Assembly (NCBI GenBank): GCA_001577345.1 | Contig: LSLI01000020.1 | Span: 1 to 35,184, forward strand | Length of the DNA stretch: 35,184 bases | Source: Candidatus Gallionella acididurans | GTDB taxonomy: Bacteria; Pseudomonadota; Gammaproteobacteria; Burkholderiales; Gallionellaceae | Direction of reading: 5' to 3' | Part shown: positions 14,529 through 35,184 of the stretch, piece after piece | How the letters are laid out: each line of letters begins with the position of its first letter | How positions within the stretch are numbered: the first letter of the stretch is position 1 | The notes under the pieces: generated by a model | Told to the model about the DNA's origin: nothing | Seen by the model: the letters and a program-made list of their open reading frames with translations, nothing else | Databases searched by the model: none | Translations under genes and position numbers: made by a program

Positions 14529-14909
14529 ATGTACAGCACGGCATTGCAGCACATCAGGCCCGGCGACTGGCTGACTTTATTGTGCGGCGGCATCTTCGTC
14601 GCAATGCTGACAATCAGCCTGTGGAACGGAGATCGCGCGGACAAGGCCATCATCCGCAGCGGCGGCAAGATATTCAGTGTAGTACCCTTGTCCAGGGACC
14701 AGCAGATCGAAGTGCGCGGCCCGCTGGGAATCAGCATCATCAGCATCAGGCAGCGCGAGGCGCGCATCGCATCCGACCCCAGTCCCCGCCAATACTGCGT
14801 GCGCCAGGGATGGTTAAAGCAGGCCGGCGAGATTGCGCTATGCCTGCCCAATCAGGTGAGCGTGGAATTGACAGGCAGCAAAAAGAGATATGACAGCCTC
14901 AACTACTGA
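14529..14909 (+). CDS. NusG domain II-containing membrane-anchored protein
   Basis: A 126-residue protein with one N-terminal membrane helix (about 13-32, WLTLLCGGIFVAMLTISLW) and a small beta-rich extracytoplasmic domain resembling the NusG_II family (PF07009): GKIFSVVPLSRDQQIEVRGPLG, then IRQREARIASDP, then YCVRQGWLKQAGEIALCLPNQVSVELTG. The paired cysteines (YCVRQGW and ALCLPN) and the IxCLPN-type ending are typical. Function of this family is not established; it often sits beside the Gx-transporter/heptaprenyl-diphosphate-synthase-component-I gene, as here, and near redox or cofactor genes. It starts three bases after rapZ and overlaps the next gene by 20 bases. Confidence 0.8.
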   Translation: MYSTALQHIRPGDWLTLLCGGIFVAMLTISLWNGDRADKAIIRSGGKIFSVVPLSRDQQIEVRGPLGISIISIRQREARIASDPSPRQYCVRQGWLKQAGEIALCLPNQVSVELTGSKKRYDSLNY

Positions 14910-21309: not shown

Positions 21310-22704
21310 CTAGATCACTTTGGAATAGAGCGCGTGCTCCTGCCGGGTACGCAAGTACTTGTCAAACACCATGCATATGTTGCGAATCAGCATACGTCCT
21401 TTGGGTGTCACTTTGATCTGCGACGAGGAAATCTCCAGCAGCCCTTCGCGTTCATATTCGCGCAGCTCCTCCAACTCGGCGGAGAAGTAATCATCGAACT
21501 TTATCCGGAAAGTGCTATTGAAGGATTCCTTGGCGAGCTCGAAGTGGCACATCAAGGCCTGAATGATAGAGCGACGCACCAGGTCATCTGCATCCAGCTC
21601 CATACCGCGCATGATGGGCAACACATCCTTGTCCAGTGCAGCGTAGTAGTCTTCCAGTTCACGATAATTCTGGCTGTAGGTCGGGCCGATTTTGCCGATG
21701 GCACTGAGCCCCAGCGCGACCAGATCGCAATCGGAATGGGTGGAATAGCCCTGGAAATTGCGGTGCAGCCTGCCCTGCCGCTGTGCCACTGCAAGCTCAT
21801 CCTCAGGTTTGGCAAAATGATCCATGCCGATATACACATAGCCCGCATGGGTCAGCTTGTTCACCGCCATGTCCAGAATATCCAGCTTTATTTGCGGGGC
21901 AGGCAAGTCCTCTTCATGGATGCGCCGCTGCGGCTTGAAAATGGTGGGCATATGCGCATAGTTATAGATGGACAAGCGGTCCGGATTGGCTGCAATAACC
22001 TTGTCCAGTGTCACACCAAAACCTTGCAGGGTTTGCCTGGGCAAGCCGTAGATCAAATCGATACTCACCGACTTGAAACCATGGGCACGCGCCGCATCGA
22101 TCACCCGCCGGGTTTCTTCTTCGCTCTGGATGCGGTTCACTGCACGCTGCACCTGGTCATCGAAATCCTGAACCCCGATGCTGATGCGATTGAACCCAAC
22201 CTCGCCGAGCAACGCGATAGTTTCATCGCTGACTTTGCGCGGATCGATTTCGATGGAATATTCGCCGCCTTCAACCAGCCTGAAGTGTTGGCGAATCGCG
22301 GTCATCACCTGGCGGATTTCATCATCGCCGAGGAATGTCGGCGTGCCCCCGCCAAAATGTAATTGCTCGACGACCTGATCAGGCCCGAGCAACAAGGCTT
22401 GCATGACCATCTCTTTTATCAGGTAGCGCACGTATTCGGCGGACTTGCTGCGATCCTTGGTTATCACTTTGTTGCAGGCGCAGTAAAAACACAACGTGTT
22501 ACAGAATGGAATATGGATGTACAGCGAGAGCGGGCGGGCGATGCCGCCAATTTCGCGTTTCGCCACCCACAGGCTATATCTGCCCGCATTGAAAGCTTCA
22601 GCGAAGCGATCCGCGGTGGGGTAAGAGGTATAGCGCGGACCGTTTTTATCCAGCCGACGTATCAGCTCCAAGTCAACTACAAGCTGGTTGACCGATTTAT
22701 CCAT
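21310..22704 (-). CDS. hemN: Oxygen-independent coproporphyrinogen III oxidase
   Basis: HemN is a radical SAM enzyme that decarboxylates coproporphyrinogen III to protoporphyrinogen IX without oxygen in haem synthesis. The 464-residue protein has RYTSYPTADRFAEAF at the N-terminus and the cluster motif CNTLCFYCACNK (C-x3-C-x2-C plus the extra Cys typical of true HemN). It continues with HFGGGTPTFL, EIDPRKVSDETI, ISIGVQDFDDQVQRAVNR and DLIYGLPRQTL, and ends with the C-terminal HemN domain. AAGGAGGG just before the ATG at 22704 decides the start over a longer frame from 22848. It is upstream of the asmA-like gene on the same strand, with 86 bases between. I found no convincing FNR box in the 5' region. 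Confidence 0.95.
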   Translation of the reverse strand: MDKSVNQLVVDLELIRRLDKNGPRYTSYPTADRFAEAFNAGRYSLWVAKREIGGIARPLSLYIHIPFCNTLCFYCACNKVITKDRSKSAEYVRYLIKEMVMQALLLGPDQVVEQLHFGGGTPTFLGDDEIRQVMTAIRQHFRLVEGGEYSIEIDPRKVSDETIALLGEVGFNRISIGVQDFDDQVQRAVNRIQSEEETRRVIDAARAHGFKSVSIDLIYGLPRQTLQGFGVTLDKVIAANPDRLSIYNYAHMPTIFKPQRRIHEEDLPAPQIKLDILDMAVNKLTHAGYVYIGMDHFAKPEDELAVAQRQGRLHRNFQGYSTHSDCDLVALGLSAIGKIGPTYSQNYRELEDYYAALDKDVLPIMRGMELDADDLVRRSIIQALMCHFELAKESFNSTFRIKFDDYFSAELEELREYEREGLLEISSSQIKVTPKGRMLIRNICMVFDKYLRTRQEHALYSKVI

Positions 22705-23411
22705 AAACCCTCCTTGATTACCGGGCATTATGCCAGTTGGCCACCTGAAACGCACCTTCTCGCCTGGCAAAACTTGCATCCCAACGGCAACAAGCTGTTT
22801 TTTTATACGCCACTGCGGGCAGCTCGAAGGTTTGCATCGCCACTCCACTCACTCTCCCCTAGTCTCCGGCAATCTTTTGGCCGTTTCCAGCTGGTTAATC
22901 AATTTCCCAAACAGAACCAACCTGATGCGTGCTTCGCTTCCTTAGTTGGCTCGCAAATTTTGGCATTGAATATGTACCCCACTTATTGGCAAGAGTGATT
23001 TTTATCGCTAGCGTGCACTAACACTGTGCCGGCACCATAGCCCACGTTATGCACACATCAAATTTTAAACGGGGTAGCTTGCTCAGGGATATCGTTGATT
23101 ACCTCGATATTGCCGAATAAATATCAGGCCGCGTGTATACTCGTTGCATGAAGAGAGATTGCTGACCACCCGACAGCGGCTTCCCGATCTCCCCAACAAC
23201 ATGGCTCGCGGCCAGCATTCATTTATGCGGCTCCCAAACGTTTTAATCGGATATACGACCACCAATTAAATGTGATTTGGTTGATCCATGTCAGTGCATT
23301 GATGCACGTTTGCAGTTATGTTACTCCGAGTTGTGCTGTGGGCTGAAAAAGCATCTTTTTTGGCGTATTTGCCACATTGACTGGGGACAGAACAATCAGT
23401 CCAGAGGGATC
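22705..23411. other. Long intergenic region at the composition shift
   Basis: About 700 bases between hemN (leftward) and the first small frame of the respiratory locus (rightward). A+T content rises across it. I found no supported gene: the longer open frames lack ribosome sites or protein-like composition. TATACT near 23135 could be a -10 for a rightward promoter, but no good -35 is placed correctly. Confidence 0.5.
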
Positions 23412-23562: not shown

Positions 23563-23616
23563 TTATGCCCTTAACATAGGGATTATTAATTATCTTCATT
23601 GACCGAGGAGCTGCAA

Positions 23617-23721
23617 ATGCTTGAACCTGATACAACAACCGCCGAAGTTCTTTTGATGTATATCGGTATTTTTGGATTTCTTTTTGGCTTGGCTTTTATT
23701 TTGATGAAGAAAAATTCCTGA
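23617..23721 (+). CDS. Small single-helix membrane protein (34 residues)
   Basis: An unreported-size frame with a strong GAGGAG (23605-23610) six bases before its ATG. The product is MLEPDTTTAEVLLMYIGIFG followed by FLFGLAFILMKKNS: a short polar N-terminus, one membrane helix of about 20 residues and a positively charged end, giving an N-out/C-in topology by the positive-inside rule. Such proteins are common as accessory subunits of terminal oxidases (CcoQ, CcoM, CydX type), and it precedes the cytochrome c4-like gene by 82 bases. No sequence family was recognised. The translation signals and composition make it likely to be real. Confidence 0.6.
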   Translation: MLEPDTTTAEVLLMYIGIFGFLFGLAFILMKKNS

Positions 23722-23803
23722 TTTTTTTGTCTGGCAAGGAAACGGGATAGCGTTGACCTGCACTAAATGCGGGTAGTTAAAATTTTAGAATGGGGAGGGG
23801 TAT

Positions 23804-24571
23804 ATGCGTAAATTATCCAATTGGGTGATTGTATGTTGGGGGACGGTCGCAATGCTGGCGTTTTCAGGCGCAAGCTTTGCTGAAGAAAGTGCTGTATCGG
23901 CAAATGTCACCAATGGAAAAAATATTTACGAGAATGGCAAGCCGGATGCTGGTGTCCCGGCCTGTGCAACATGTCACGGCGACAAAGCCATGGGCATGGA
24001 TGCAATGGGGACCCCCAGGCTTGCCAATATTGGATATGTGTACATCGTCAAGCAATTGACCAATTTTGCAGAAGATAAGCGCAAAGATCTGACCATGGAT
24101 CAGATGAATGGCATAGCAAAAGGACTGACCGTTCAAGACAGGCGCGATCTGGCTGCCTATGAAAACAGCTTCCCCAGGGATAGCGAGCTTTCCGACCTCA
24201 ACGCGCTCAAGGCGGACGGCACGGTCGTAGGTGAAGCCTACAAAGGTCAGATTCTCGTTAAATACGGCAGAGAAGGGAAGGCTGGCGCATGCCAATCTTG
24301 CCACGGCTCTAATGGACGCGGCGCGGATCCTGTTTATCCCAAGATCGGCCAGCAAAAGTATGTGTACCTGGTCAACCAATTGACGCATTGGCGTGATGGT
24401 TCCCGCGCTAATGATCCTATGGGTCAAATGCAAGCGATTGCACGAACATTGTCTGATGATGACATCCATAATGCTGCTGCCTACTTGTCGCAGGCACCAG
24501 CCAGGACCGAAGGAGACACATATGAGATCGATAACAAGACAGTTCTGAAAAACGTAACTATCGTCAAATAA
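23804..24571 (+). CDS. Diheme cytochrome c4-like protein
   Basis: A 255-residue periplasmic diheme cytochrome c. The signal peptide (about 1-26, ending SGASFAEES) is followed by two similar class I c domains with haem motifs CATCH (54-58) and CQSCH (163-167). The tandem layout, the C[AQ][TS]CHG(D/S) context, the paired IGYVYIVKQLTNF / QKYVYLVNQLTHW segments and the methionines near MDQMNGIAKGL and MGQMQAIARTL (axial ligands) are typical of cytochrome c4. Such proteins hand electrons to cbb3-type or other oxidases. GGGGAGGGG just upstream supports the ATG at 23804. It is the first large gene of the respiratory locus and is followed by two hairpins, the second a terminator. Confidence 0.9.
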   Translation: MRKLSNWVIVCWGTVAMLAFSGASFAEESAVSANVTNGKNIYENGKPDAGVPACATCHGDKAMGMDAMGTPRLANIGYVYIVKQLTNFAEDKRKDLTMDQMNGIAKGLTVQDRRDLAAYENSFPRDSELSDLNALKADGTVVGEAYKGQILVKYGREGKAGACQSCHGSNGRGADPVYPKIGQQKYVYLVNQLTHWRDGSRANDPMGQMQAIARTLSDDDIHNAAAYLSQAPARTEGDTYEIDNKTVLKNVTIVK

Positions 24572-24594
24572 GGTTTTCTTGTTCTTTTGATATT

Positions 24595-24620
24595 CCCGCA
24601 TCGTCAATAATCGGTGCGGG
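24595..24620. other. Stem-loop after the cytochrome c4-like gene
   Basis: CCCGCATCG (24595-24603) pairs with CGGTGCGGG (24612-24620) with one G-T wobble and an eight-base loop. No T-run follows, so alone it would stabilise the 3' end or pause polymerase; the next hairpin is the likely terminator. Confidence 0.55.
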
Positions 24621-24630
24621 CAGTTTAATG

Positions 24631-24659
24631 AAGACTGGTCGACTCAGGCCAGTCTTTTT
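24631..24659 (+). terminator. Intrinsic terminator after the cytochrome c4-like gene
   Basis: AAGACTGG (24631-24638) and CCAGTCTT (24649-24656) form a perfect eight-base stem with a ten-base loop, running into TTTTT. It separates the cytochrome c4-like unit from the cytochrome/subunit-I-like genes starting at 24728. Confidence 0.8.
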
Positions 24660-24727
24660 GCTTTGAGCGTCGTTGATGAAATACACTACGCTACTCGGAC
24701 TTTATATTGATTCAGGAATGGTGATAA

Positions 24728-25309
24728 ATGAAAAAAGGAGAGAAGATTCTTTTTGGGGTGGTTGCGTTGCTTGTTGTCATTACTGTGATTAACTTTACCG
24801 TATTGGAGACTGTCAGGCATAACACCAGTAAACCGCTGTTTCCAATACTGACGCATTTCGATTTTTCAGCTGGCGGGCAGCGTGGTTACGGGCTATATGA
24901 AAAGAACAATTGTTACGATTGTCATCATGCTGTTGGCAGTGGCACCAGCATGGGTGTAGGACTGGATGGCCTGGGCTCGAAGCATGACGTGAATTATTTC
25001 TACAACTTCCTGAAGCACCCGGAACAAACGTATGGCGCGAAGACAATGGATCATGGCGCACCCCCCAAGGATGCCGCTTATGTGTCCAACCTCCCGGATT
25101 CCGATTTGCATGACATAGCCACATTCCTTTCCGAGTTGAAATCAGATCAAGGCTCTTCTTCGTCATTCGAACCCCCCGAGGGCGAGTCGAGTTTCATTGA
25201 TGCCATGGTCGCCATGTGGACTCCGGACGGCTGGAGAAAAAAGTATACGGATATTCGCGATTGGATGAAGTCAAATTCACAAGAGGGACAGCATGAAAAC
25301 AAGCACTGA
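24728..25309 (+). CDS. Membrane-anchored monoheme cytochrome c, NorC-like
   Basis: A 193-residue protein with an uncleaved N-terminal helix (about 7-27, ILFGVVALLVVITVINFTVL) and one periplasmic c-type domain. The haem motif CYDCH is at 62-66 in the context GLYEKNNCYDCHHAVGSG, very like the NorC context of NO reductase (WEKNNCxxCH). Met107 in GAKTMDHGAPP is a possible sixth ligand, and DLHDIATFLSELK is the usual last helix. A C-terminal extension (about 140-193) with Trp residues (MWTPDGWRKKYTDIRDWM) is beyond the standard NorC length. It overlaps the next gene, a short NorB/CcoN-like protein, by 17 bases, so the two are translationally coupled and probably form a complex. NO reductase activity cannot be assumed. 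Confidence 0.85.
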   Translation: MKKGEKILFGVVALLVVITVINFTVLETVRHNTSKPLFPILTHFDFSAGGQRGYGLYEKNNCYDCHHAVGSGTSMGVGLDGLGSKHDVNYFYNFLKHPEQTYGAKTMDHGAPPKDAAYVSNLPDSDLHDIATFLSELKSDQGSSSSFEPPEGESSFIDAMVAMWTPDGWRKKYTDIRDWMKSNSQEGQHENKH

Positions 25310-25808
25310 GCAGAGCGCATTGCAGGACAAGGATTTCACCAGATATCTTTTGTGGTTTGTTTACGCGTGCATAATTTATAGCATCATTGGTTTTTCTTGG
25401 GGCGCAATTATGGGCGGCGTTCCCGCCTTCCGGCATTTTGTGGATTATAGCGCCCATGGACGCTTGATCACATTGGCACACGGGCACATCAACTTGCTTG
25501 GTTGGGTGGAAATGGCGATATTTGCCGCGCTTTACTATGTGGTACCCGTGGTTTCCCGCCGCTCGATATACAGCGTGCGCCTGGTTAAAATTCATTTCTG
25601 GATGCATAATTTTGGACTGATCGGGATGGTTGTTTTTTTCTTCACAGCCGGATTGGTCGGGGGCCTGAGTACGGGAGAAGATGCCGAAAAGCTGGTCAGT
25701 CACCTGCTTGCTTTTGTCGGAATATTTGGAATGCTAGTGCTTTCGGCAAATATTATCTGGGGTTACAACCTTTATAAAACCACCACAGGATGGCAAGACC
25801 GGAAATGA
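25293..25808 (+). CDS. Short subunit-I-like membrane protein (NorB/CcoN N-terminal type), copy 1
   Basis: A 171-residue, four-helix protein (about 17-42, 58-86, 99-125, 135-160). It resembles only the first part of haem-copper oxidase/NO reductase subunit I. Helix 2 contains LAHGHINLLGW (H63, H65) leading to YYVVP, as in the low-spin haem b ligand helix of the superfamily. Helix 3 starts KIHFWMHNFG (H101, H105) and helix 4 starts SHLLAF (H137). The CuB and high-spin haem ligand helices (VI, VII, X) are absent, so it cannot be a complete oxidase; bis-His haem b binding is possible. A GAGGG six bases upstream supports the start, which overlaps the preceding cytochrome. Its stop overlaps the next start (ATGA at 25805-25808). 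A paralogue is at 29160. Confidence 0.8.
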   Translation: MKTSTEQSALQDKDFTRYLLWFVYACIIYSIIGFSWGAIMGGVPAFRHFVDYSAHGRLITLAHGHINLLGWVEMAIFAALYYVVPVVSRRSIYSVRLVKIHFWMHNFGLIGMVVFFFTAGLVGGLSTGEDAEKLVSHLLAFVGIFGMLVLSANIIWGYNLYKTTTGWQDRK

Positions 25809-26302
25809 GCAAGAGACCGCTGCTGTGGTCCTGTCTGGGGATCGCTATATTGGGCTTGTTGGGTGGATGCGAACAAAGAATGGCCGCGGGCTTTGCCGTG
25901 GGTGAACGGGCTCCAAGCCTGCCCACCAAGACCTTGGCCGATGTAGGCGGCAACTTCAGCAAGGTTACTACTTATCGGCAGCCGGATCCCCGCATGTACC
26001 AATACTCGGTAGATCAGGCATTATTAACCGGAAAACCTATAGTTTTGGAGTTTGCAACTCCCGGACATTGCACAAATTGCGACGAGCAACTCCAGATGCT
26101 CAAAGCAATCATGGACAAGTATCAGAGTAAAATGATATTTATTCACATTGATGAGTATGAGAATCCACAGGCATATAAGGCTTATCAAGTCATGGGGGAT
26201 CCGTGGACATTTATCATCGACAAAAAAGGTATTGTCCACTTTGAGCGCGCCGGACGAATGTTGTACGGTGAATTGGATGATGCGATCAAGCAAACTTTGT
26301 AG
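25805..26302 (+). CDS. Thioredoxin-fold lipoprotein with CxxC motif
   Basis: A 165-residue lipoprotein: signal KRPLLWSCLGIAILGLLGGC, Cys22 as lipidation site. A thioredoxin-like domain follows, with the beta-strand KPIVLEFATPG and the redox pair CTNC (89-92), the helix DEQLQMLKAIMDKY, and the GDPWTFIIDKKGIV strand holding the cis-Pro. The usual WCxxC tryptophan is replaced by His. A periplasm-facing oxidoreductase or metal-delivery role in assembling the neighbouring cytochromes or copper sites (like Sco or TlpA proteins) is plausible. Sco-type histidine was not identified, so TlpA-like is my preferred label. The gene starts inside the stop codon of the subunit-I-like gene, so it is coupled to it. 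Confidence 0.78.
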   Translation: MSKRPLLWSCLGIAILGLLGGCEQRMAAGFAVGERAPSLPTKTLADVGGNFSKVTTYRQPDPRMYQYSVDQALLTGKPIVLEFATPGHCTNCDEQLQMLKAIMDKYQSKMIFIHIDEYENPQAYKAYQVMGDPWTFIIDKKGIVHFERAGRMLYGELDDAIKQTL

Positions 26303-26308
26303 CCGGAA

Positions 26309-26803
26309 ATGGTGACTGGTAACCGAGCAATGATAGACAAGCATTTAACAGAGTCAACCCAGTTTAGGTTCGTCAAGGATCGTAATGGCATGGTATGGGA
26401 TTTGATGCTCTACATACCAACAGTGGTCGCGCTTGGCTCCATAGCTAGCAGTTTTTGGTATGGCGATGATAACAGCATGGGATATTTATTCTTTTTTCTG
26501 GCCTGTTTCTTTTTCATAGCTGGATTTAATCGCGTAATGAAAACACGACTGATGCTTTTGCCGTCTGCTCCGGTTAGCCTGGAAATCGGCGAGCAGAACC
26601 TCGGTTTGGTGCAAAGAAACGGCATCCAGGTCAACCTGGTAAAAAACCTCCGCTATTACCCCGATTATTCGGGCAAGTCTTTTGGCATTTCCGGCCTGGA
26701 TGGAACAGGCAAGCAATTACAATTTGTAATTCACAAAGGGCAATTTACCAATTTTTCTCAATTTGAGTCTGCCCAAGCGCTGCTGAAGCGCTACGTTAAA
26801 TAG
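26309..26803 (+). CDS. Uncharacterised two-helix membrane protein with beta-rich C-terminal domain
   Basis: A 164-residue protein. After ~25 polar residues come two helices (about 34-51 and 59-74 by hydrophobicity, LYIPTVVALGSIASSFW and YLFFFLACFFFIAGF). A cytoplasmic-type domain follows with alternating strands (APVSLEIGEQNLGLVQRNGIQVNLV, then GKSFGISGLDGTGKQLQFVIHKG). This helical hairpin plus PH-like beta domain recurs in many uncharacterised bacterial proteins; I recognise no specific family. Two starts are possible, 26309 and 26330 (MIDKHLTES), neither with a good ribosome site. It follows the thioredoxin-like gene by six bases and ends the plus-strand cluster, convergent with the 70-residue gene. 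Confidence 0.6.
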   Translation: MVTGNRAMIDKHLTESTQFRFVKDRNGMVWDLMLYIPTVVALGSIASSFWYGDDNSMGYLFFFLACFFFIAGFNRVMKTRLMLLPSAPVSLEIGEQNLGLVQRNGIQVNLVKNLRYYPDYSGKSFGISGLDGTGKQLQFVIHKGQFTNFSQFESAQALLKRYVK

Positions 26804-26834
26804 AAACTAAAAGAATAGCTGTCTGCGAATCGCG

Positions 26835-27047
26835 CTACTTTTTCCCTGAGCGATTTTGAATCACATCCCACGCCATATATGCGGTTGCGGATGCAACAAC
26901 AAGACAAGCTCCGGCGATTAGCTGGTACTCTGTTTCCTGGCTGACCAGGCCCCCTACAAACATATGCACTGAAAAACCTGTTATGAATAGTGCACCGATT
27001 GCGGAAACCGAATAAATCAATATCTCGGTAACCATGCCTTTGATCAT
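26835..27047 (-). CDS. Small two-helix membrane protein (70 residues)
   Basis: A 70-residue protein with two hydrophobic segments (about 8-33 and 40-62), starting MIKGMVTEILIYSVSAIGAL and ending with the positive tail NRSGKK. Its ATG overlaps the stop of the upstream membrane protein (ATGA at 27044-27047), so translation is coupled. No family is recognised. Joint expression with the large polytopic protein suggests a small partner subunit. It ends 31 bases from the convergent plus-strand cluster. Confidence 0.65.
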   Translation of the reverse strand: MIKGMVTEILIYSVSAIGALFITGFSVHMFVGGLVSQETEYQLIAGACLVVASATAYMAWDVIQNRSGKK

Positions 27048-28489
27048 GGTTTTTGCCCGGGCACGGAACTCTTGATTGCAACGATTACCCCTCCTTGTTG
27101 CAAAGCGACGGTCTCTACTTTTCCTGCATCCATTGTGGCAAGATTTCGCGCAAGCGAAATGTTCTTTGGATCGCGCGGATCAAATATCAAATAATTGACA
27201 CCCCGCAACATTGCAAGCAAATCATCGCTATCCTTGGCGGGTGGTGGCAGCGGAAGCGCATCACAACGGCAGGCCAGCATGGTGAGCCCAGGCCACTGAC
27301 TGGCCACGCGAACCGGCTGCTTGGAGACGGAGGGGCCCTGCCCTGGCTCGCTACCAAGGAAACTTCCCCTGTCCTCGGCCAGGGTTTTGATCAGGTTGTC
27401 TCGCGGTGACAAATATCCGTCCAGCACCGTTTGGTAGTTTGCTTTATCAGCCAGCATGAACGTGGTCGAAAGAATAAAGAACAACGACATGGCGATGCCA
27501 CGCTGCCCCCAAAATCCACCCGATGTATTCGTGCTGGCCGGCAACAATAAAGGCAGGCCCCAATACAGGCAAACCGTCAGAGCAATAATGCTCCAGGTTT
27601 GGTCACCCGTAAGCGTGCCCGCGATGATTGCAATGAGCAGAGTCCGCCCGAAAATGTCGGCCCACAAGTTTCCAGCCTGTTTCCAGATTACCAGTAGCAG
27701 GATACCAAGTATCCCTGCCCCGCTAATCCAGCCAAAAACCCCAATATTCCTGGCGCTTGACGATCCTGACAACAAACCTGACAAGCTTCTCATCGGATTG
27801 CTGAACCATTCTATGTTATTCCATCCCAGTGTCAGTAAAAGTGCAAGCAGGACAACAAAGATTATTCCGCCGAAAAAATAATTCTTATGTTTTGCGTCAG
27901 ACGGGTTCTTATGCCATCCCCACAACAGCGCCAAAGGGTAAGCCAAACCGGCAGGGTGTAGCGTCACGCTCACCAGGCATAAAAGAATCTGGGAAAAATA
28001 CATCCCCCCGAATGCCTGGGGAGATTCACGGTACTTTTGATCCGCCCATGCGCCAAGCGCAAAAACGAAAAGAAGATAAGGTACGACGGAAATCGTGTCG
28101 ATTTGATCGATAAGTAACGGACAGATCAGCAACAGCCCGGATGCCAAAAGTGCGCTCTCTGCATTTCCGCTATGCTCTCTCCATCTATATGTTGCCCACA
28201 CTGCGCCCGACATCACAAACAACGTGAATATCTTCGCGGCGACTATATTGCCTACCCATAAATAGCCGACAGGTGCGAAGAAGAATGCGCGGAAATCTGG
28301 CAACCCCAGAGTTACGATCGGACTGACCACATCATCCGTTACTGACCAGACCAGTAATAATGCGCGCGCAGCTCCCTCATCGATACCATAAGGAGATTTG
28401 TTCAACAATATGAAGCTTAGTCCACCCCAAAGCAAAAATGCGGGGACAGCCCAGAATCTTTGTGGGATACGCGGTAACCAATTGTTCAT
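27044..28489 (-). CDS. Polytopic membrane protein, possibly GT-C glycosyltransferase-like
   Basis: A 481-residue inner-membrane protein with about ten hydrophobic helices in the first ~380 residues and a soluble extracytoplasmic C-terminal part of about 100 residues. The first loop carries the acidic pair in PYGIDEGAARALLLVW (Asp37-Glu38), in a position where GT-C enzymes such as ArnT/PMT have their catalytic Asp/Glu. This, the helix pattern and the Rossmann-less C-terminal domain suggest a glycosyltransferase of the lipid-linked sugar type, but I cannot prove it. The C-terminal part includes MLACRCDALPLPPPAKDSDD. I chose the ATG at 28489, preceded by GGTAGG; a TTG 33 bases upstream also opens the frame. 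It overlaps the 70-residue gene downstream. Confidence 0.6.
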   Translation of the reverse strand: MNNWLPRIPQRFWAVPAFLLWGGLSFILLNKSPYGIDEGAARALLLVWSVTDDVVSPIVTLGLPDFRAFFFAPVGYLWVGNIVAAKIFTLFVMSGAVWATYRWREHSGNAESALLASGLLLICPLLIDQIDTISVVPYLLFVFALGAWADQKYRESPQAFGGMYFSQILLCLVSVTLHPAGLAYPLALLWGWHKNPSDAKHKNYFFGGIIFVVLLALLLTLGWNNIEWFSNPMRSLSGLLSGSSSARNIGVFGWISGAGILGILLLVIWKQAGNLWADIFGRTLLIAIIAGTLTGDQTWSIIALTVCLYWGLPLLLPASTNTSGGFWGQRGIAMSLFFILSTTFMLADKANYQTVLDGYLSPRDNLIKTLAEDRGSFLGSEPGQGPSVSKQPVRVASQWPGLTMLACRCDALPLPPPAKDSDDLLAMLRGVNYLIFDPRDPKNISLARNLATMDAGKVETVALQQGGVIVAIKSSVPGQKP

Positions 28490-28887
28490 ATAATATTTAC
28501 CTACCGGCTGATAGGCAGCCAACTTTAGCAGACAGGAATTTACCGACTTTACAAATCAACAAACTAAAATCCAATGGGACTTGCGGCCGGATGGTCTGGA
28601 ATGCCCGCCCGGCTTCAGCCTAAGCCCCAGACCCTTCGTTCCGGCATAAAGCTGTTATCACGGCATTATTGCGCAATCAGGCATGAATTTAAAAAGTATT
28701 GTATCAGCAAGCAAGTTAATGCAGCAATACTATATGCCTAGTGGAGCCCCGTGTTCCATATGCATTGTGACGCATGCGAACAGAGTTGCACGGAATGCAG
28801 GATTCGGCTAGACTGCTAACCAGCTGGAGGGGAAGAGTGGTAGTTTCATTTAATTATGATATGTCATGTAACGAAGGGAAATACGCT
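28490..28887. other. Divergent intergenic region with a structured element
   Basis: About 400 bases between the leftward polytopic-protein gene and the rightward 39-residue gene. It should hold promoters for both. The notable content is the long hairpin-like element at 28586-28645. A fragment of open frame from 28774 into the small gene lacks a ribosome site and is not proposed as coding. Confidence 0.5.
28586..28645. repeat. 60-bp three-tiered hairpin element
   Basis: Three consecutive nested stems: GCCGGA (28586-28591) with TCCGGC (28640-28645); GGTCTGG (28593-28599) with CCAGACC (28627-28633); GGCTT (28611-28615) with AAGCC (28622-28626) around a CAGCCT loop. All are perfect. No T-run follows on either side. 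It is probably a dispersed palindromic element or a structured RNA rather than a terminator. Confidence 0.6.
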
Positions 28888-29007
28888 ATGTCAATTGAAC
28901 CAATTCAACTTTTAGTGCCCATTGGAATCTTTGTGTTGGGAATGCTGGTTTCTGTAAGCTTGAGCAATCTGGGTATAGAGCGCATCGTCGAGACAGACAA
29001 AAAATAA
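28888..29007 (+). CDS. Small single-helix membrane protein (39 residues)
   Basis: A 39-residue protein: MSIEPIQLLVPIGIFVLGML followed by VSVSLSNLGIERIVETDKK. The N-terminus is short, a helix spans about residues 8-28 and the charged tail is probably cytoplasmic. GAAGGGA eight bases before the ATG at 28888 decides this start over the longer frame from 28774. It has its own strong terminator 35 bases after the stop, so it can form a stand-alone transcript. It resembles in kind, not in sequence, the 34-residue protein at 23617 and the tiny subunits of oxidases. No family was recognised. Confidence 0.6.
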   Translation: MSIEPIQLLVPIGIFVLGMLVSVSLSNLGIERIVETDKK

Positions 29008-29041
29008 AATTAAGCGCTGCGTAGTTTCAAAGCTTGTTATG

Positions 29042-29070
29042 AAAATGTCCGGCAATCGCCGGGCATTTTT
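29042..29070 (+). terminator. Intrinsic terminator after the 39-residue gene
   Basis: AAAATGTCCGGC (29042-29053) pairs with GCCGGGCATTTT (29058-29069) across an AATC loop, with one G-T wobble, running into T residues. It separates the 39-residue gene from the second subunit-I-like gene at 29160. Confidence 0.88.
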
Positions 29071-29159
29071 GTTTGTGGTGGTTGAAAGTACCAGTTTCCA
29101 GTCTTTCCAAGTAGCCAGATCTATCCCGTTAGTCTAAATCTGTAAAAGCACCCTACTCT

Positions 29160-29678
29160 ATGAGCAAAGACATTCTTCACCAACAACTCTTAAAGTTTCT
29201 GCTGGTCTCTGTTTTCTCATTTTTCATCGGCACTATTCATGGCATGCTTCAAGTCATGCCTCCTATTCGTGCCTGGCTGGATTCGATTGGCAGCCCATAC
29301 GGCGGCCCCGGCCATATGATCGACCCATTGGCACACGCGCACATGAATTTGGTTGGGGGAGTGGTACTGCTGGCAATGGGTGTGACTTATTATTTGCTGC
29401 CGATCTTTACTGGAAAGAAAATATATTCCATCAGCCTGGTTAAGCATACTTTCTGGTGGGTCACCATAGGCGTTTATAGCTTCTATATCATACAAATGGT
29501 TTTTGGCATCTGGGAGGGTTTGTTATTGCATTCAGACCCGCAAGAGATTCCAGCCATCCATCGTTTATACGGTCCGGTTATGGCTGTTTCCGGCACCACT
29601 ATGGCAGTCGGCTTTTGCACTTACCTTGCAAATGTAATTCTCACCATAACGTCCCCCGGGGATCGCTCCACCCCGTAG
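29160..29678 (+). CDS. Short subunit-I-like membrane protein (NorB/CcoN N-terminal type), copy 2
   Basis: A 172-residue, four-helix protein (about 10-33, 57-82, 93-120, 136-163) paralogous to the one at 25293. Shared landmarks in the same order are LAHAHMNLVGG (H59, H61), YYLLP, KIYSISLVKHTFW (H96) and a histidine at the start of helix 4 (H134 in AIHRLYGP). As in copy 1, the later helices that carry CuB and the high-spin haem are missing. Differences include a longer periplasmic loop after helix 1 (GSPYGGPGHMIDP) and loss of the Trp after the His motif. No good ribosome-binding site is seen before the ATG. It is convergent with the lipoprotein gene at 29692, 13 bases away. Confidence 0.78.
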   Translation: MSKDILHQQLLKFLLVSVFSFFIGTIHGMLQVMPPIRAWLDSIGSPYGGPGHMIDPLAHAHMNLVGGVVLLAMGVTYYLLPIFTGKKIYSISLVKHTFWWVTIGVYSFYIIQMVFGIWEGLLLHSDPQEIPAIHRLYGPVMAVSGTTMAVGFCTYLANVILTITSPGDRSTP

Positions 29679-29691
29679 AAATTAAGAAGCA

Positions 29692-30081
29692 TCACCCTCC
29701 AGCCAGCTTAAACGGGAAGAGCAGTACCTTCTCCTCTGATCCCTCCTGAAGCCGAACTTGTACTGCAGCGGAATTGCTCTCTCCAATATCGACAGCACGG
29801 CGATACACGCCAATAAATCCATCCTGAATCGCCTGTGTCCACGGTTGTGACTCACCACCACGCAGTGACACGATTAAATTCCCCGTAGGCCTGCCATGCG
29901 GGCCGGTGACGATAACAACAATCTCGGACATGCCTGCAAGCGGGGGATTGGGATGAGTCTCAATGCGCACAACATTTTCCTTCCAATGCTGGGAGGGAAT
30001 CTGAAGGGGCTTGGTTTCGTCGTTACATGCGGCCAGCCCTACGGCAAGCAGGCTTGCCAGCATAGTCAGTATTATTTTCAC
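29692..30081 (-). CDS. YtkA/FixH-like lipoprotein
   Basis: A 129-residue lipoprotein: signal MKIILTMLASLLAVGLAAC with lipobox LAAC, Cys19. The mature part has the beta-sandwich pattern of the YtkA/FixH class: HPNPPLAGMSEIVVIVTGPHGRPTGNLIVSL in segments, then GFIGVYRRAVDIGES and VQVRLQEGSEEKVLLFPF. Such domains occur in proteins tied to copper handling and oxidase maturation. Here it ends a minus-strand run of CcoG, a two-helix protein and this lipoprotein, where FixH would stand in a fixGHIS cluster, but it is lipid-anchored rather than helix-anchored. Family assignment is tentative. Confidence 0.62.
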   Translation of the reverse strand: MKIILTMLASLLAVGLAACNDETKPLQIPSQHWKENVVRIETHPNPPLAGMSEIVVIVTGPHGRPTGNLIVSLRGGESQPWTQAIQDGFIGVYRRAVDIGESNSAAVQVRLQEGSEEKVLLFPFKLAGG

Positions 30082-30115
30082 GTTTCAGGCAGAAATTTAC
30101 GTGGCAGCACAGCCG

Positions 30116-30544
30116 TTACTTTTGCTTGTCCGCTTTGCTTTTATCCTGAACTCCCTTGTCGGTATCCAGCCTGCCCGCAGCAGGAGACCCGTACATGTAT
30201 ATCATGTAGTATATAAATATTGCACCGACTGAAATATATACCAGCGAGCCTAGGAACCCCGGATCTTTCACCCAGTCGGTCCATTTCACAACCACTCCTG
30301 GACGCAAACCCCAGAATGGAAAGCTGAGGCCAATGCCAACCAGCAACACAATAACCACCACGGCCATGAACCAATAAGGAACATTACGTTGTGATTCCGG
30401 AATCTTCTCCACCAATTCCCAGTCTTCCATGCCGCGCTTCTCCAAGCGTTCCTCGTCCGAGGCATAACCGTAGTTATCTTTGCGTAGCTCGCCCCATTGA
30501 GATTCATCATTCGCAACGCCCGATTTCTTACCAGTCTGTTCCAT
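30116..30544 (-). CDS. Two-helix membrane protein between CcoG and the lipoprotein, unknown family
   Basis: A 142-residue protein with a long charged N-terminus (about 1-52, rich in Glu/Asp/Lys), helix 1 at about 54-78 (NVPYWFMAVVVIVLLVGIG region), a loop with two Trp (VKWTDWVKDPG), helix 2 at about 98-119 and a Lys/Asp-rich tail. It has no haem or metal motif. AGGAG upstream suits the second of two adjacent ATGs (30544; the other is 30547). Position ten bases after ccoG and 34 before the lipoprotein marks it as part of that operon. Its topology recalls the membrane part of CcoP without the c domains, but I see no homology I would claim. Confidence 0.6.
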   Translation of the reverse strand: MEQTGKKSGVANDESQWGELRKDNYGYASDEERLEKRGMEDWELVEKIPESQRNVPYWFMAVVVIVLLVGIGLSFPFWGLRPGVVVKWTDWVKDPGFLGSLVYISVGAIFIYYMIYMYGSPAAGRLDTDKGVQDKSKADKQK

Positions 30545-30554
30545 CATATCTCTC

Positions 30555-31871
30555 CTATTCAACAAAATGCTGAACATTAAAACGTCCAATCCAGCCATCT
30601 TTGGAATGAACCACCACCACGAAAGGGTAAAGGCCACGCTTTAGGGCCGGCGACACGGTAAGGAATACCGATGTACGCCCAACCGATTTCAGGCTCACAT
30701 CGGGATTGCTCAGGGTAAAATCATTCGGCGGCAATCCTTCCACTGACATGGTCAGTTCGGTTGGACGATATCGCTTGCTGGAAACTTCAATTAGGTAATC
30801 GCCTCCCGAACGATTATGCGCCATTTGCTGGGTACCCACTGCTATATGGTATGGCTGGTATGACCAGACTCCCCAGGTAAACATGACGGCTCCCATGACT
30901 GCGAATGGTGCGGTCCAGCGAAACCTCGAAAGCAATAAAATGGAGTTGTCGCGAAACTCACGAACCTTGCCTGTTTTACGTTGCCCAAATTCAAACCGCA
31001 ACAAACCCACCCCGCCTTTCTTAGCCTGCAGGTTATTGCACGCATCGATACAGTCACCACAGTTAATACAGCTGTCATAAACCTCTGTCCTGCGTGGATC
31101 CAAGTCGATGAAGCAGGTTGTCACGCAATAATTGCATTTTGCGCATTCATCTGTTCGGTTGGAATCGTAAACCACGTGCAGCGTTTCCTTGGTTTTAAAA
31201 GAATGTTGCCAAACCTTATATACACAGGCGAAGCGGCACCAGAAATGCCTGAGCACAGCAACATCCAGAAAAATAATCAGCACCCATACCGAATAAATCC
31301 AGTACAAGGAAGCGGCTAACCTTGCATCCTCCCTGAGAGTTATGAAAGACCACACCACATCAGGCGGATAGAAGTACAGCAGGGGAAACAAAGCAAACAA
31401 CATTGCCGCGCATAAAAAAGAGAAGCCCAGCAACGACCAGTTTAATATCCTGTTTTTGGCGGCTGCCACTTTCGGCGCCTCGCCTGTCAAGCTGACTTCA
31501 GCACGCTTGCCAAGTAACTTGTGGGTCATATGGTTGGCCCATTCCGACAAGGTATTCTGCGGACACGCCCATCCGCAAAAAATTGTTCCCGCAACCGAAT
31601 AAAGAGCGACCAGCGCGCTGGCCAGCATAATCCACAAACCGGTTACCAAAAAGAAATCGGCGAACCATATTTGCCATCCCAAAACCACAAACGCGCCATT
31701 TTCAGGATCAATACGAAACAATCCGGAAACCGGTATCAGCACCAGCAACAACAGAATGGTCATCTGGACAATCCGTCGCTTCCAGCGATAGTTAGCCACT
31801 CCCCGACCACCGGCAGAACCGACGACTTTTATCGGAATGCTGGAAAGTGTTTTGTTGATATTCGAGGACAT
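30555..31871 (-). CDS. ccoG: Cytochrome c oxidase accessory protein CcoG (FixG)
   Basis: CcoG is a membrane iron-sulfur protein needed for cbb3 oxidase assembly; it is known to act in reduction of copper for the CuB site. The 438-residue protein has NapH/FixG-type helices and the conserved CGWACPQN (99-106), a helix block around 145-215 with HFWCRFAC, and two 4Fe-4S motifs: C243-x2-C246-x2-C249-x3-C253 and C268-x2-C271-x2-C274-x3-C278. The C-terminal third is the immunoglobulin-like FixG domain after a last helix (about 320-338). AAAGG six bases before the ATG supports the start. It is somewhat shorter than typical FixG. No ccoNO genes lie beside it in the window; it sits 35 bases downstream of the spermidine-synthase-like gene. 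Confidence 0.92.
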   Translation of the reverse strand: MSSNINKTLSSIPIKVVGSAGGRGVANYRWKRRIVQMTILLLLVLIPVSGLFRIDPENGAFVVLGWQIWFADFFLVTGLWIMLASALVALYSVAGTIFCGWACPQNTLSEWANHMTHKLLGKRAEVSLTGEAPKVAAAKNRILNWSLLGFSFLCAAMLFALFPLLYFYPPDVVWSFITLREDARLAASLYWIYSVWVLIIFLDVAVLRHFWCRFACVYKVWQHSFKTKETLHVVYDSNRTDECAKCNYCVTTCFIDLDPRRTEVYDSCINCGDCIDACNNLQAKKGGVGLLRFEFGQRKTGKVREFRDNSILLLSRFRWTAPFAVMGAVMFTWGVWSYQPYHIAVGTQQMAHNRSGGDYLIEVSSKRYRPTELTMSVEGLPPNDFTLSNPDVSLKSVGRTSVFLTVSPALKRGLYPFVVVVHSKDGWIGRFNVQHFVE

Positions 31872-31906
31872 ATGTGCCTTTTTGCGCAGTACCGGTTATA
31901 ACAAAT

Positions 31907-34552
31907 TCAAGGGGTCGCTCTCGCCTCGCTGTCCAGCGGCGAAATGGCAAGCAACCGCAGACGGTAACTTTCTGATTCTTTTGTGTTGCCCGCAGAACGC
32001 TCCAGATGCCAGATGGCGCGCAGGGCACCAACAAAATTCGGATTGAAGTCCAAGATTCGCTGCAATGCCTGGCGTGGGCTCAATCCGTGCTCGCCAGCTT
32101 GAGAAAGCGACATAAGCATGTTATCAGCTAGTGCATTAGCAATCCAGTGATCTTGGGGATTCGCCTGATAAGCCACCCAAATCAAATTACCGGCTTTTTC
32201 GGCATCGCCTTGAATCGAGGCTACCCATGCACGCACAATAAGCTCTGTCGCCACGTATGCGCGGCCAAACTGATTCATGTTTTCCGCGCCAATCCCCAAT
32301 ATTTTCATTGCGTTGTTAGCATCAGGATGCCGCTGCAATAACCATTGCATCAAGTTTGCGAGGTTAACTCTACCGTCATAGCGCGCCCTCGGCAGATTGA
32401 ATTCAATGTATGGCATCCACTCGTCCTGAACCGGTCCGCTGGTTTCAGGAATCGGGCCCCAATAGCGACCCAGCCAAGTCCATGCGCCCTCTCCACCCGT
32501 CGCCAGTCCCTGTTGCTTGACTGAAAGGTGATGCAGGTTTTCGAGCATGATATGGGCAGACATTTGCCTTTCAGGACCAACCAATGCCAGATGCATGCCA
32601 TCCATAAACATTTGGGCTTCTGGAAATACACGCTGAAAGCTGCGCAGAACCACCTGGAGCGATTGAATATCGAACTGGTTCAGCGCCAACCACTGTACGA
32701 ATACACCGTCAGCATTCAAGTGGTTTCTAGCCCGCTGGAAATGCTGCACCGACAACAAGGAACCCATCCCGGCCAGATCGGGATGGAACAAGTCTCCAAC
32801 GATCACATCGTAGTTATGTTGCGTGGTGCTTAAAAAATGCCTGGCATCATCCCTTTGGACCTGCGCCGTATCCATGACGTTGCCATTTACCAGCGAGAAC
32901 CAGTTCCTAGCCGCATAAATTGAGCCTTGGGATAGTTCTACAGCAGTACGCTGCAAATCCGGAAAGGGCAAGGATCCTGCCATGGATATTCCGGTTCCCA
33001 ATCCCAGAAATAATACACTGTGGGGGGCGGGATGCAGCAACAATGCAAGCCGCGCCTGATCCATTTGAATCTCGACTGCACTTGGTTCAGTCGAGGCATC
33101 CATGCGCTGTAAATCGCTCAGGAGTACGCGTTGGCCATCCTGTTGCCGTACTACTTGCGTCAAGGATATTGCGTCCTCGTACAAATACAAGTCTCGGCTA
33201 TTGGCTTCAATTTTCGGCAGCAATTCATGCACCGGCGGCATGTTGCGCAAAGGCCAGGCAAGCAACAACATGGGCAAAATCGCCACCCAAGCCAATCGCG
33301 GCCTGGCCCATAGCAAACCCAATGCAGCGATTACAAGCCCAGCCAACACAACCATTGCTTCACTGCCCAGCCATGGGATACACACTAAACAGGCAACAAT
33401 TGCTCCGATCCCGCCTCCGATACAGTTCGCGCCATATAACCATACACCACTCGACTCGGCGTTGCCAAGGCGGTTGGCCATCAATGGCAACCAAGCCCCC
33501 AGCACCAAGGTAACCGGCAGCGTGAATACGCCCAACATCAACGCTTGCAACCACATTGCGCCAAAAAATGACTGGAATTGCCTGCTCTCTATCCATGCCG
33601 AGGCGGACGGAAGCAAGTACATGCCAAGCAGCACGGCTCCTCCGGCCATGACCGGCATTAACACCGTCAGCCAGTTTTTCGGGTGGCGCGGAAGCAACAG
33701 GCTACCAAACGCAATCCCCAAGAGAAATACCGCCAGAATTACCCCGAGCACATATTCGGTACGCAACATGATCATGCCGTACAACCTGATCCAGCCGATT
33801 TCCAGCATGATGCTGCCGGCCCCGATCCCCCCATAAATGACCAACTCGAGTACAGGGGGCCGCGGCTGATTAATTTTCTCTGAGGAAGTGAATTTCTCAT
33901 CGCCGGCTCGTGCAAACCGGGACAAGATTAATGCGGCAATACCAACCATCAACCCTATGGAGGCTACCGACCTCACCGAATCCAGCCAGCCTAGCACCGG
34001 CAAACTCCATAATGGAAACAATGCCCCGACAACTCCCCCTATGGTGTTAAGCCCATACAGCTTTCCCATTGACAGTGGTGTATGCGCGACTACTTTCAGC
34101 ACCAGAGCAAACCCCAACCCCATGGCAAAAGCCGGAATTACCAGCAAACACAGGGCTTCGACTCCTTGCGTGAGATACCATTGCGTCAATGTCAGGTGAC
34201 TCGCAATACTTTCCATCCATCCGCTAAGCGAATGAAGCAGACCGGGCAACAGCAAGGCATAAAGAGCGATTGCTATCTCAAGCAGCGCAAACAAGCCCAA
34301 AGGCTTCTTGCATAGTTTTGCGTATCTCACTCCCGCCAGACTGCCCATTCCCAGTCCGAACATGAATGCCGCAACAGTTAGCACTACGCCGAATATGCTT
34401 ACGCCGAATTGCATGGACAACAAACGTGCCCATAGCACCTCATATGCAAGACTGGTCAAACCCGACAGGCTGTAAAGTATTGCTACCACCCACCACCATG
34501 AAATCTTGCTTGAACTGTTGGAATTCAAACAAGCGGGCTGGATGGATGACAT
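31907..34552 (-). CDS. Membrane-fused spermidine synthase-like protein
   Basis: An 881-residue fusion. Residues ~20-435 are about 12-14 transmembrane helices of the MFS-like type often found joined to polyamine synthase folds. Residues ~455-690 are a spermidine synthase-like Rossmann domain with the AdoMet-type loop FLGLGTGISMAGS (LGLGTG at 516-521), an acidic strand end (TAVELSQGSIYAARNWF) and RDDARHFL. The aminopropyltransferase catalytic Asp region (usually D-x-x-D-P) reads GDLFHPD (586-592), so real spermidine synthesis is doubtful. The C-terminal ~150 residues form TPR-like helices (AGNLIWVAYQANPQDHWIANALADN in parts). Substrate is unknown. It lies immediately upstream of ccoG on the same strand. 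The ATG at 34552 lacks a strong ribosome site. Confidence 0.8.
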   Translation of the reverse strand: MSSIQPACLNSNSSSKISWWWVVAILYSLSGLTSLAYEVLWARLLSMQFGVSIFGVVLTVAAFMFGLGMGSLAGVRYAKLCKKPLGLFALLEIAIALYALLLPGLLHSLSGWMESIASHLTLTQWYLTQGVEALCLLVIPAFAMGLGFALVLKVVAHTPLSMGKLYGLNTIGGVVGALFPLWSLPVLGWLDSVRSVASIGLMVGIAALILSRFARAGDEKFTSSEKINQPRPPVLELVIYGGIGAGSIMLEIGWIRLYGMIMLRTEYVLGVILAVFLLGIAFGSLLLPRHPKNWLTVLMPVMAGGAVLLGMYLLPSASAWIESRQFQSFFGAMWLQALMLGVFTLPVTLVLGAWLPLMANRLGNAESSGVWLYGANCIGGGIGAIVACLVCIPWLGSEAMVVLAGLVIAALGLLWARPRLAWVAILPMLLLAWPLRNMPPVHELLPKIEANSRDLYLYEDAISLTQVVRQQDGQRVLLSDLQRMDASTEPSAVEIQMDQARLALLLHPAPHSVLFLGLGTGISMAGSLPFPDLQRTAVELSQGSIYAARNWFSLVNGNVMDTAQVQRDDARHFLSTTQHNYDVIVGDLFHPDLAGMGSLLSVQHFQRARNHLNADGVFVQWLALNQFDIQSLQVVLRSFQRVFPEAQMFMDGMHLALVGPERQMSAHIMLENLHHLSVKQQGLATGGEGAWTWLGRYWGPIPETSGPVQDEWMPYIEFNLPRARYDGRVNLANLMQWLLQRHPDANNAMKILGIGAENMNQFGRAYVATELIVRAWVASIQGDAEKAGNLIWVAYQANPQDHWIANALADNMLMSLSQAGEHGLSPRQALQRILDFNPNFVGALRAIWHLERSAGNTKESESYRLRLLAISPLDSEARATP

Positions 34553-34705
34553 GGAGAAATGGATAGAGGTTTGACAGCCCGGATACCAGGCAAGACCGTT
34601 ATAGATCTAACAGGGATAGCCGGTAATCTGGGGATACTTTAATCGGAAGTTTCTTGCCAGAATCGTAACGCGCCGGGTAGCCGGATAACCGTGAAGCCAG
34701 ATAAA

Positions 34706-35080
34706 TTAAAATGGATAAAACCATACCAAACCCACGATCGCGTGAACTATCGCGAGCGATACGCTCAAGCCGGCAAACACCATGTGCGCCACGAATACCG
34801 GCTTGCCATATAAGCCCATGGCAACACCCAAACCACCGGTGATCAAAACCAGGGTTATAAGCACCACACCCAGCAAAAACATGATCTGCTGCTTTTCTTT
34901 AGGGCTTATTGCTTTATCACGTTCATCATTCCTGTGCTGCAAATTGAAAGCCTGGAGTATCTGGGCACTGTCACCGGACTGGGAAGCTTCCTCTGCATAC
35001 GCCGGCAACAAACCAAAAGTCGACAGCAATACTGCCAAAATAATCGCAACAAAACGAAGAATTAATGTTCTGGAAATCAT
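34706..35080 (-). CDS. Secreted/membrane two-helix protein with H-x13-H helix
   Basis: A 124-residue protein with a signal peptide (MISRTLILRFVAIILAVLLS... ending AYA|EE), a charged periplasmic segment and two helices near the C-terminus (about 69-91 and 97-122). The second helix holds two histidines 14 positions apart (H-x13-H in VAHMVFAGLSVSLAIVHA), the spacing by which one helix ligates two stacked b-type haems in cytochrome b-like bundles. That is suggestive only; the partner histidines would have to come from another protein or a dimer. I chose the ATG at 35080 because it gives a clean signal peptide; an ATG at 35098 is also in frame. It follows an incompletely seen gene by 24 bases (six if the earlier ATG is used). 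Confidence 0.6.
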   Translation of the reverse strand: MISRTLILRFVAIILAVLLSTFGLLPAYAEEASQSGDSAQILQAFNLQHRNDERDKAISPKEKQQIMFLLGVVLITLVLITGGLGVAMGLYGKPVFVAHMVFAGLSVSLAIVHAIVGLVWFYPF

Positions 35081-35104
35081 TACTGGAATTCTCAGCATAA
35101 GTTT

Positions 35105-35184
35105 TTATTTAACGGGTTCATGGTTGACGTCTTCGACTTGCTGCGCGGATTTGCGCGCTGCGTTGCGCCAGGCAATTACAGCCA
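35105..35184 (-). CDS. C-terminal end of an unidentified gene (partial)
   Basis: The minus strand is open from the window edge to a TAA at 35105-35107, giving 25 residues, AVIAWRNAARKSAQQVEDVN plus HEPVK. The sequence looks like a charged C-terminal tail following a helix end. It is immediately upstream of the H-x13-H protein gene and thus probably the preceding gene of that operon, possibly the main subunit of the respiratory locus. Nothing more can be said from 25 residues. Confidence 0.45.
   Translation of the reverse strand, partial: AVIAWRNAARKSAQQVEDVNHEPVK

Follow-up and report, generated by a model that had tools for sequence, protein, structure and literature searches.

A group of genes at the right-hand end of the DNA analysed here encodes c-type cytochromes, assembly-type proteins and two small membrane proteins that resemble part of subunit I of haem-copper oxidases. 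The question raised by this locus is whether these proteins form a respiratory complex of their own, as an earlier note on this DNA had proposed, or serve a full oxidase. The window, i.e., the whole stretch that was analysed, comprises bases 1-35184 of contig C20 of a 3.43-Mb genome.

Gene content of the window

Relatives of the locus were compared in 80 named loci, which are the best 80 of 217 relatives of the short1 gene (see below), each with stretches of up to 10 kb each way. The cluster is flanked by hemN (window 21310-22848) and by the gene of an Fnr-type regulator on another contig of the genome, C79 (7207-7968). A tiny single-helix protein of 40 amino acids (aa) (23599-23721, forward strand) has relatives in 19 of the 80 loci, where they precede the c4-type cytochrome gene. 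The latter (23804-24571, forward) encodes a periplasmic di-haem cytochrome c of 255 aa whose best match in the Protein Data Bank (PDB) is cytochrome c4 (E = 1.3e-20); both of its CxxCH motifs are kept in at least 97% of 72 aligned rows, and against the ccoP model it scores 42.5 of 179.95 bits, i.e., under the cut-off. NorC1 (24728-25309, forward) is a membrane-anchored mono-haem cytochrome c matching Pfam Cytochrom_C, and its similarity to NorC is weak (19.1 bits, E = 0.0082). The two c-type cytochromes, one of them NorC-like, that had been read from the sequence are therefore a c4-type protein and NorC1.

The NorC1 gene overlaps that of short1 (25293-25808, forward), which fits a tight pair. 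Behind short1 lie TrxLP (25790-26302, forward) and a conserved membrane protein of 164 aa (26309-26803, forward) that has no family match and follows closely behind short1 in 78 of the 80 loci. TrxLP, a lipoprotein whose lipobox was assigned by eye, carries a thioredoxin-like domain (Pfam AhpC-TSA/Thioredoxin), in line with its earlier description as a CxxC lipoprotein; both cysteines of the pair are kept in at least 97% of 81 rows, and the protein is likely a maturation factor. Two membrane proteins without a Pfam match, of 70 aa (26835-27047) and 492 aa (27044-28522), are encoded on the reverse strand. The larger is often, not always, found in the cluster, and its place relative to the oxidase genes shifts between lineages.

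The second of the two four-helix proteins, short2 (29160-29678, forward), is preceded by a tiny single-helix protein of 39 aa (28888-29007, forward; relatives in 13 of the 80 loci). All remaining genes are on the reverse strand. A 129-aa lipoprotein (29692-30081) had been likened to YtkA/FixH; it gave no Pfam or NCBIfam match to FixH or YtkA and has no convincing family match. The adjacent two-helix membrane protein (30116-30547) shares a 40-residue region of similarity with TM206 from the CcoN/CcoO operon (hhalign, 88%). It is followed by the predicted CcoG, a CcoG-like 4Fe-4S membrane protein (30555-31871) scoring 119.7 bits with the NCBIfam ccoG model, below the curated cut-off of 316.7, and by an 881-aa membrane protein with a spermidine-synthase-like domain (31907-34552; NCBIfam MFS_SpdSyn, 67.3 bits, cut-off 40), which lies inside the cluster in several lineages. 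TM130, a two-helix membrane protein of 130 aa (34706-35098), does contain the H-x13-H motif ascribed to it, but of the two histidines only H105 is kept in at least 97% of 24 rows. Several tiny membrane proteins are present, as had been noted, and profile comparison gave no signal of mutual relation among them.

The window holds the left part of an oxidase gene cluster

The gene cut by the right edge (35105-35182, reverse; last 25 codons and stop) had been suspected to encode the core subunit of the complex. It proved to encode a single-helix protein of ~80 aa, whose first 55 residues form the end of contig C79. In relatives such as L040, L041, L044, L047, and L049, the gene is whole, and the order is TM130, the ~80-aa gene, FGE, a 149-aa membrane protein, NorC2, a 92-aa protein, a further small gene, TM206, a CcoO-like gene, and a CcoN-like gene; in the genome of the window, the genes to the right of TM130 are on C79. 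Since the split gene is whole in relatives, the two contigs, C79 and C20, are very probably adjacent. The window accordingly holds the left-hand portion of a cluster that encodes a divergent cbb3-type oxygen reductase in which no CcoP was recognised.

The CcoN of this cluster, CcoNd, is full-length and divergent. It aligns with the CcoN chain of 3mk7 over positions 21-450 and keeps the equivalents of H60, H207, Y251, H257/H258, H345, and H347 of that structure; H64, H205, Y249, H255, H256, H343, and H345 of CcoNd are kept in at least 97% of 44 rows. The six haem/CuB histidines and the active-site tyrosine of the C family are therefore all present, and we take these residues to be the haem and CuB ligands and the active-site tyrosine of a cbb3 oxidase. 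Both core subunits score below the NCBIfam equivalog cut-offs (CcoNd, 230.7 of 583.15 bits; CcoO, 64.2 of 200.65 bits), and none of the eight proteins encoded at C79 8678-14621 was recognised as a CcoP. TM206 and TM173 had been considered for CcoP from a resemblance seen by eye; comparison of the TM206 profile with the PDB gave no CcoP. Judged by the organisms, the missing CcoP, and the literature, the oxidase is very likely the "distal" cbb3 form, described for Gallionellaceae and Zetaproteobacteria and for oxidisers of iron and nitrite.

The contig C79 holds two further genes of note. An FGE-like (sulfatase-modifying-factor) protein (13560-14621), with an N-terminal membrane helix assigned by eye, is encoded in the oxidase cluster and has near-full-length relatives in 26 of the 80 loci; many other loci are cut before the FGE gene. 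The gene of the Fnr-type regulator adjoins that of CcoN; the protein exceeds its NCBIfam subfamily cut-off and fits oxygen control. Elsewhere the genome encodes three other long PF00115 proteins (on C45, C34, and C85): the one on C34 is a canonical-type CcoN, and the other two, which are longer, were taken from length only as a quinol oxidase and a quinol NO reductase.

Profile comparison gave three pairs of paralogues: NorC1 and NorC2 of C79 (profile comparison, 99.3%), short1 and short2 (97.9%, in agreement with the mutual relation proposed for the two four-helix proteins), and TM173 and TM206 (88% over 40 residues). The pairs suggest that a second module has grown from oxidase-type parts.

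short1 and short2 resemble single repeats of CcoN

The haem-copper oxidase fold consists of 12 helices, which make up three related four-helix units. Both short proteins match PF00115 above its gathering cut-off of 34.8 bits, and both do so at the C-terminal end of the 436-position profile (short1, 58.4 bits at 306-406; short2, 43.1 bits at 308-410). Their NCBIfam matches also fall at the C-terminal end of ccoN. The resemblance to only the N-terminal part of NorB/CcoN that had been claimed is therefore not borne out, nor does N-terminal truncation account for the two proteins, since the PF00115 and repeat matches point to the C-terminal third repeat. The short1 profile does touch all three four-helix stretches of 3mk7 CcoN (best at 331-459, weaker at 12-107 and 162-246), and with one NorB (4xyd) its best stretch is N-terminal (12-149), which may explain the N-terminal reading.

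Profile-profile comparison (hhalign) with the individual repeats of CcoNd gave short1 scores of 51, 57, and 98 for repeats 1, 2, and 3. The controls reached at most 22.6 with column shuffles (60 each), 13.5 with reversed profiles, and 20.2 with windows of seven other families. With the repeats of 16 canonical CcoN sequences, the scores were 22, 53, and 87, against shuffled maxima of 18.1, 17.7, and 27.8 and reversed controls of up to 19.8. By this measure, short1 clearly matches the third repeat of CcoNd and of canonical CcoN alike, and likewise the second repeat, although in canonical CcoN the latter match spans only 34 columns (reversed control, 19.8). The match to the first repeat is clear for CcoNd and not firm for canonical CcoN (22.4 versus a shuffled maximum of 18.1). 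The repeats of CcoN hardly match one another (best score, 33.5; U1-P3, 33.0; P2-P3, 30.7). For short2, scores with the third repeat were 53 and 71, and the other repeats are less sure: U2 gave 42.9, and the weaker matches (U1, 24.3; P1, 28.6; P2, 31.3) were set aside because reversed U2 itself reached 29.1.

AF2 models of short1 (pLDDT 88.8) and short2 (pLDDT 83.1) have four long helices and one short one. In Foldseek searches, the best matches of the short1 model were CcoN chains (best E = 4e-5; query TM-score 0.76-0.80 for the first seven). The first six matches of short2 were CcoN chains too, with a best E of 1.5e-3 and none at 0.001 or below. Neither protein has the twelve helices, low-spin haem site, high-spin haem site, and CuB site of a full subunit I; of these features the HxH helix alone is present. 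Profiles and models together suggest that the two short proteins are related to CcoN as free-standing single repeats of the third-repeat type.

A tree was built from 14 of 81 short1 and 12 of 15 short2 sequences, 12 distal and 14 of 16 canonical third repeats, and 12 second repeats. Both short families fall outside the group that the distal and canonical third repeats form together (support 95/77), in a tree whose branches are long enough to draw a program warning and in which short1 does not form one side of a branch under that root. Origin of short1 and short2 as a recent partial copy of the neighbouring CcoN gene was rejected on this position.

The short proteins accompany the distal-type CcoN

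The prediction that the genes travel together was confirmed: they are found together in loci named Gallionella, Sideroxydans, Nitrotoga, Ferrovaceae, other gammaproteobacterial MAGs, and Zetaproteobacteria. Among the best 80 of 217 loci, NorC1 is directly upstream of short1 in 80, TrxLP is downstream in 79, and the c4-type gene is two positions upstream in 71; such orthologues with largely conserved neighbours are more than chance. CcoNd lies within the fetched stretch in 46 of these loci and short2 in 14. The closest relatives of short1 among the 80 come from genomes named Gallionella, Sideroxydans, or just Proteobacteria, and a 97%-identical one (L051) is from a MAG called Proteobacteria; we take the genome of the window to be that of a Gallionellaceae member.

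Co-occurrence was assessed in a family sample of 120 genomes, with cut-offs of E = 1.2e-64 or better for short1 orthologues and E below 1e-80 for CcoNd. Some match to the short1 query was obtained in 110 genomes, mostly to full-length CcoN. short1 itself was found in 39, short2 in 36, and CcoNd in 38 genomes (in G079 as a fragment at a contig end); all 38 have short1, and only one (G094) of the 82 genomes without CcoNd does (Fisher P = 1.4e-30, related genomes not being independent). A canonical CcoN alone, ~30-33% identical to CcoNd, is present in 64 genomes, and at these cut-offs they have neither short protein. The short1-positive genomes in which short2 was not detected (G002, G085, and G094) are all draft assemblies.

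The linkage extends to distant genomes. In the whole genomes of 35 of the 80 loci, CcoNd was found in 35 of 35, with 77-91% identity where full length, and short2 in 32: of 33 matches at E = 1e-10, that in G141 was short1 itself, and the short2 of G142 is split over two contigs. The lack of a short2 match in 3 of the 35 distant genomes and in 2 of the 38 CcoNd-containing family genomes may be due to assembly gaps. In a phylum sample of 398 genomes, short1 was detected in 45 and CcoNd in 42, with 39 having both, 6 short1 alone, and 3 CcoNd alone. The nine exceptions are all less than 90% complete; among the 338 genomes that are at least 90% complete and at most 5% contaminated, short1 and CcoNd occur in the same 25. 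This sample is narrow on its positive side, with 40 of the 45 short1 positives belonging to one family, f39, which coordinates shared with the distant-genome test suggest to be Zetaproteobacteria. A single TGA is present inside two of the phylum-sample short1 matches (G314:C196:5056-5562 and G278:C325:27508-28005).

These counts bear on several readings of the short proteins. The earlier note held that they form a complex separate from full haem-copper oxidases. That claim is unsupported: the cluster itself includes, on its right, a full-length CcoN/CcoO pair, and the short proteins hardly ever occur without CcoNd. The note had also named two findings that would speak against a joint complex: genes that do not travel together, or a canonical ccoNOP operon on the right combined with a lack of the short proteins in relatives. 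Neither was observed; the oxidase proved divergent, with no recognised CcoP, and relatives do have the short proteins. A modified version, in which short1, short2, and NorC1 constitute an independent complex (e.g., a cytochrome c:quinone or NO-related one) that shares only regulation or physiology with the oxidase, is in accord with the NorC1-short1 gene pair of all 80 loci, a pair that echoes NorC-NorB, and with the fact that the block can be far from CcoNO (~283 kb between short1 and CcoNd on one contig of G003, one of several genomes in which the blocks are apart). We consider it quite unlikely, as short1 without CcoNd was never seen in the well-assembled genomes of the phylum sample and was seen in just 1 of 39 short1-containing family genomes, and the short proteins have no second metal site for NO reduction.

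The idea that short1 and short2 are functionless, decaying fragments of a duplicated ccoN would account for a match to one third of CcoN and for the internal TGA in 2 of 45 phylum-sample matches. Yet short1 is 59-97% identical to the window copy over 33 aligned sequences, with many invariant residues, gene order is fixed, and the tree places both families outside the third-repeat group, unlike a recent copy of the neighbouring gene. This origin is highly improbable.

Conserved histidines and a proposed role in electron transfer

In short1, H63, H65, H101, and H105 are kept in at least 97% of 81 rows, and in short2, H52, H59, H61, H96, and H134 are kept in at least 97% of 15 rows. The HxH pair of short1 (H63/H65) aligns with H345/H347 of 3mk7 CcoN, which we take to be the ligands of haem b3 and haem b; H59/H61 is the HxH pair of short2. 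The repeat carrying the CuB ligands is absent from both proteins. Conservation of these histidines makes short1 and short2 candidate membrane b-type cytochromes with a putative haem b. A lone short unit has no counterpart of the helix-II histidine that is the partner ligand of the low-spin haem, so binding would need another, postulated ligand.

We propose, as a reading about as probable as not, that NorC1 and the two short proteins constitute an electron-transfer module of the b/c type, either as a component of the distal cbb3 oxidase or docked to it. Electrons from the periplasm would enter the c4-type cytochrome, a plausible and likely soluble donor that may be the published Cyc1, and pass to the haem c of NorC1 at the membrane surface. 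From there they would reach a haem b bound through the HxH motifs of short1 and short2, its site probably at the interface between two short units, and then the CcoN/CcoO core, where O2 would be reduced. TrxLP and the CcoG-like protein would serve assembly. For the module, haem binding, the partner ligand, complex formation, stoichiometry, and the direction of electron flow are all our inferences.

The same data could be read in another way, with short1 and short2 as haem-free subunits whose sole part in the distal oxidase is structural or in assembly, taking over the anchoring by CcoP/CcoQ. The strict linkage of short1 to CcoNd is equally expected of such subunits, assembly-type genes (CcoG, the CxxC lipoprotein) lie in the same blocks, and neither short protein has a complete CcoN haem site. 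On the other hand, the HxH pair, kept in at least 97% of rows in both families, has no evident role without haem, and short1 keeps H101 and H105 as well. A haem-free function is rather unlikely.

In neutrophilic iron oxidisers and Nitrotoga, the route of electrons to the oxygen reductase is largely unproven, and the electron-transfer module that we favour would be a concrete candidate for the missing step. The cluster could also act as a genomic marker of the distal cbb3 oxidase. Beyond this, four-helix units whose profiles match more than one CcoN repeat provide a handle on the origin of the 12-helix haem-copper oxidase core. In a bolder and unlikely version, short1 and short2 would be living single-repeat members of this fold, whose oligomers form a split, haem-b-bearing, copper-free oxidase-like ring that conducts electrons, and perhaps protons, between NorC1 and the distal cbb3 oxidase, a shape expected of the pre-triplication ancestor.

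Comparison with known systems

The oxidase core of the cluster corresponds to a variant described earlier from genomes. The "distal" cbb3 clade goes back to Ducluzeau et al. (2008), as cited in PMC7029218, PMC8788666, and PMC10734462. According to the available excerpts of PMC8788666, proximal and distal cbb3 oxidases differ in subunit composition, normalised expression of the distal form in Sideroxydans ES-1 is ~3-fold above that of the proximal one, and distal ccoNO levels on thiosulfate exceed those on Fe(II)-citrate, which argues that the cluster is not an iron-only device. The same source associates a Cyc1 homologue with the cbb3 cluster of ES-1, and excerpts of PMC5513912 suggest that a Cyc1 homologue interacts with cbb3 in Mariprofundus PV-1. 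For Ferrovum JA12, an excerpt of PMC4725956 describes subunits I and II alone, and cytochromes c co-localised with them. The available excerpts of PMC3770913, PMC8788666, PMC7029218, PMC10734462, PMC4725956, and PMC6050957 make no mention of short subunit-I-like proteins, nor do those of PMC4643136, PMC5513912, PMC5566968, PMC6443915, and PMC12607638. As far as we found, linked single-repeat, HxH-bearing proteins with a NorC of their own are undescribed.

Like the distal cbb3 oxidases portrayed in these excerpts, the cluster has full-length genes for CcoN-like and CcoO-like proteins and comes from the same groups of lithotrophs; it differs in the short subunits and NorC1 module, which are not mentioned for the distal form. 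The 20 conserved genes, of function unknown there, that excerpts of PMC3770913 report from Sideroxydans ES-1 and Mariprofundus PV-1 and as absent from Gallionella ES-2 resemble the cluster in conserved order, some haem proteins, mostly hypothetical products, and the same groups of organisms. By this description, rather than by locus numbers, they may be the cluster of the window.

Canonical cbb3 oxidases (ccoNOP; 3mk7, 8smr) have the ligands kept in CcoNd, and 8smr includes a cytochrome c4 chain, whereas here CcoNd and CcoO are below the cut-offs, no CcoP was recognised, and there are two extra single-repeat proteins. Like cNOR (NorBC), the cluster pairs a NorC-like cytochrome with a subunit-I-like protein; the NorC match is very weak, however, and short1 and short2, without the FeB/CuB-binding repeat, lack the FeB site of a NorB. 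DUF2871 (PF11070, 134 positions) is a small family. Its similarity to short1 is weak and covers most of the length (E = 0.0043; 17.7 bits, below the gathering score of 27.4), its profile matches the C-terminal part of the genome's CcoN very weakly (E = 0.08), and none of 14 control genomes had a match above the cut-off. DUF2871 may thus be another stand-alone single-repeat relative.
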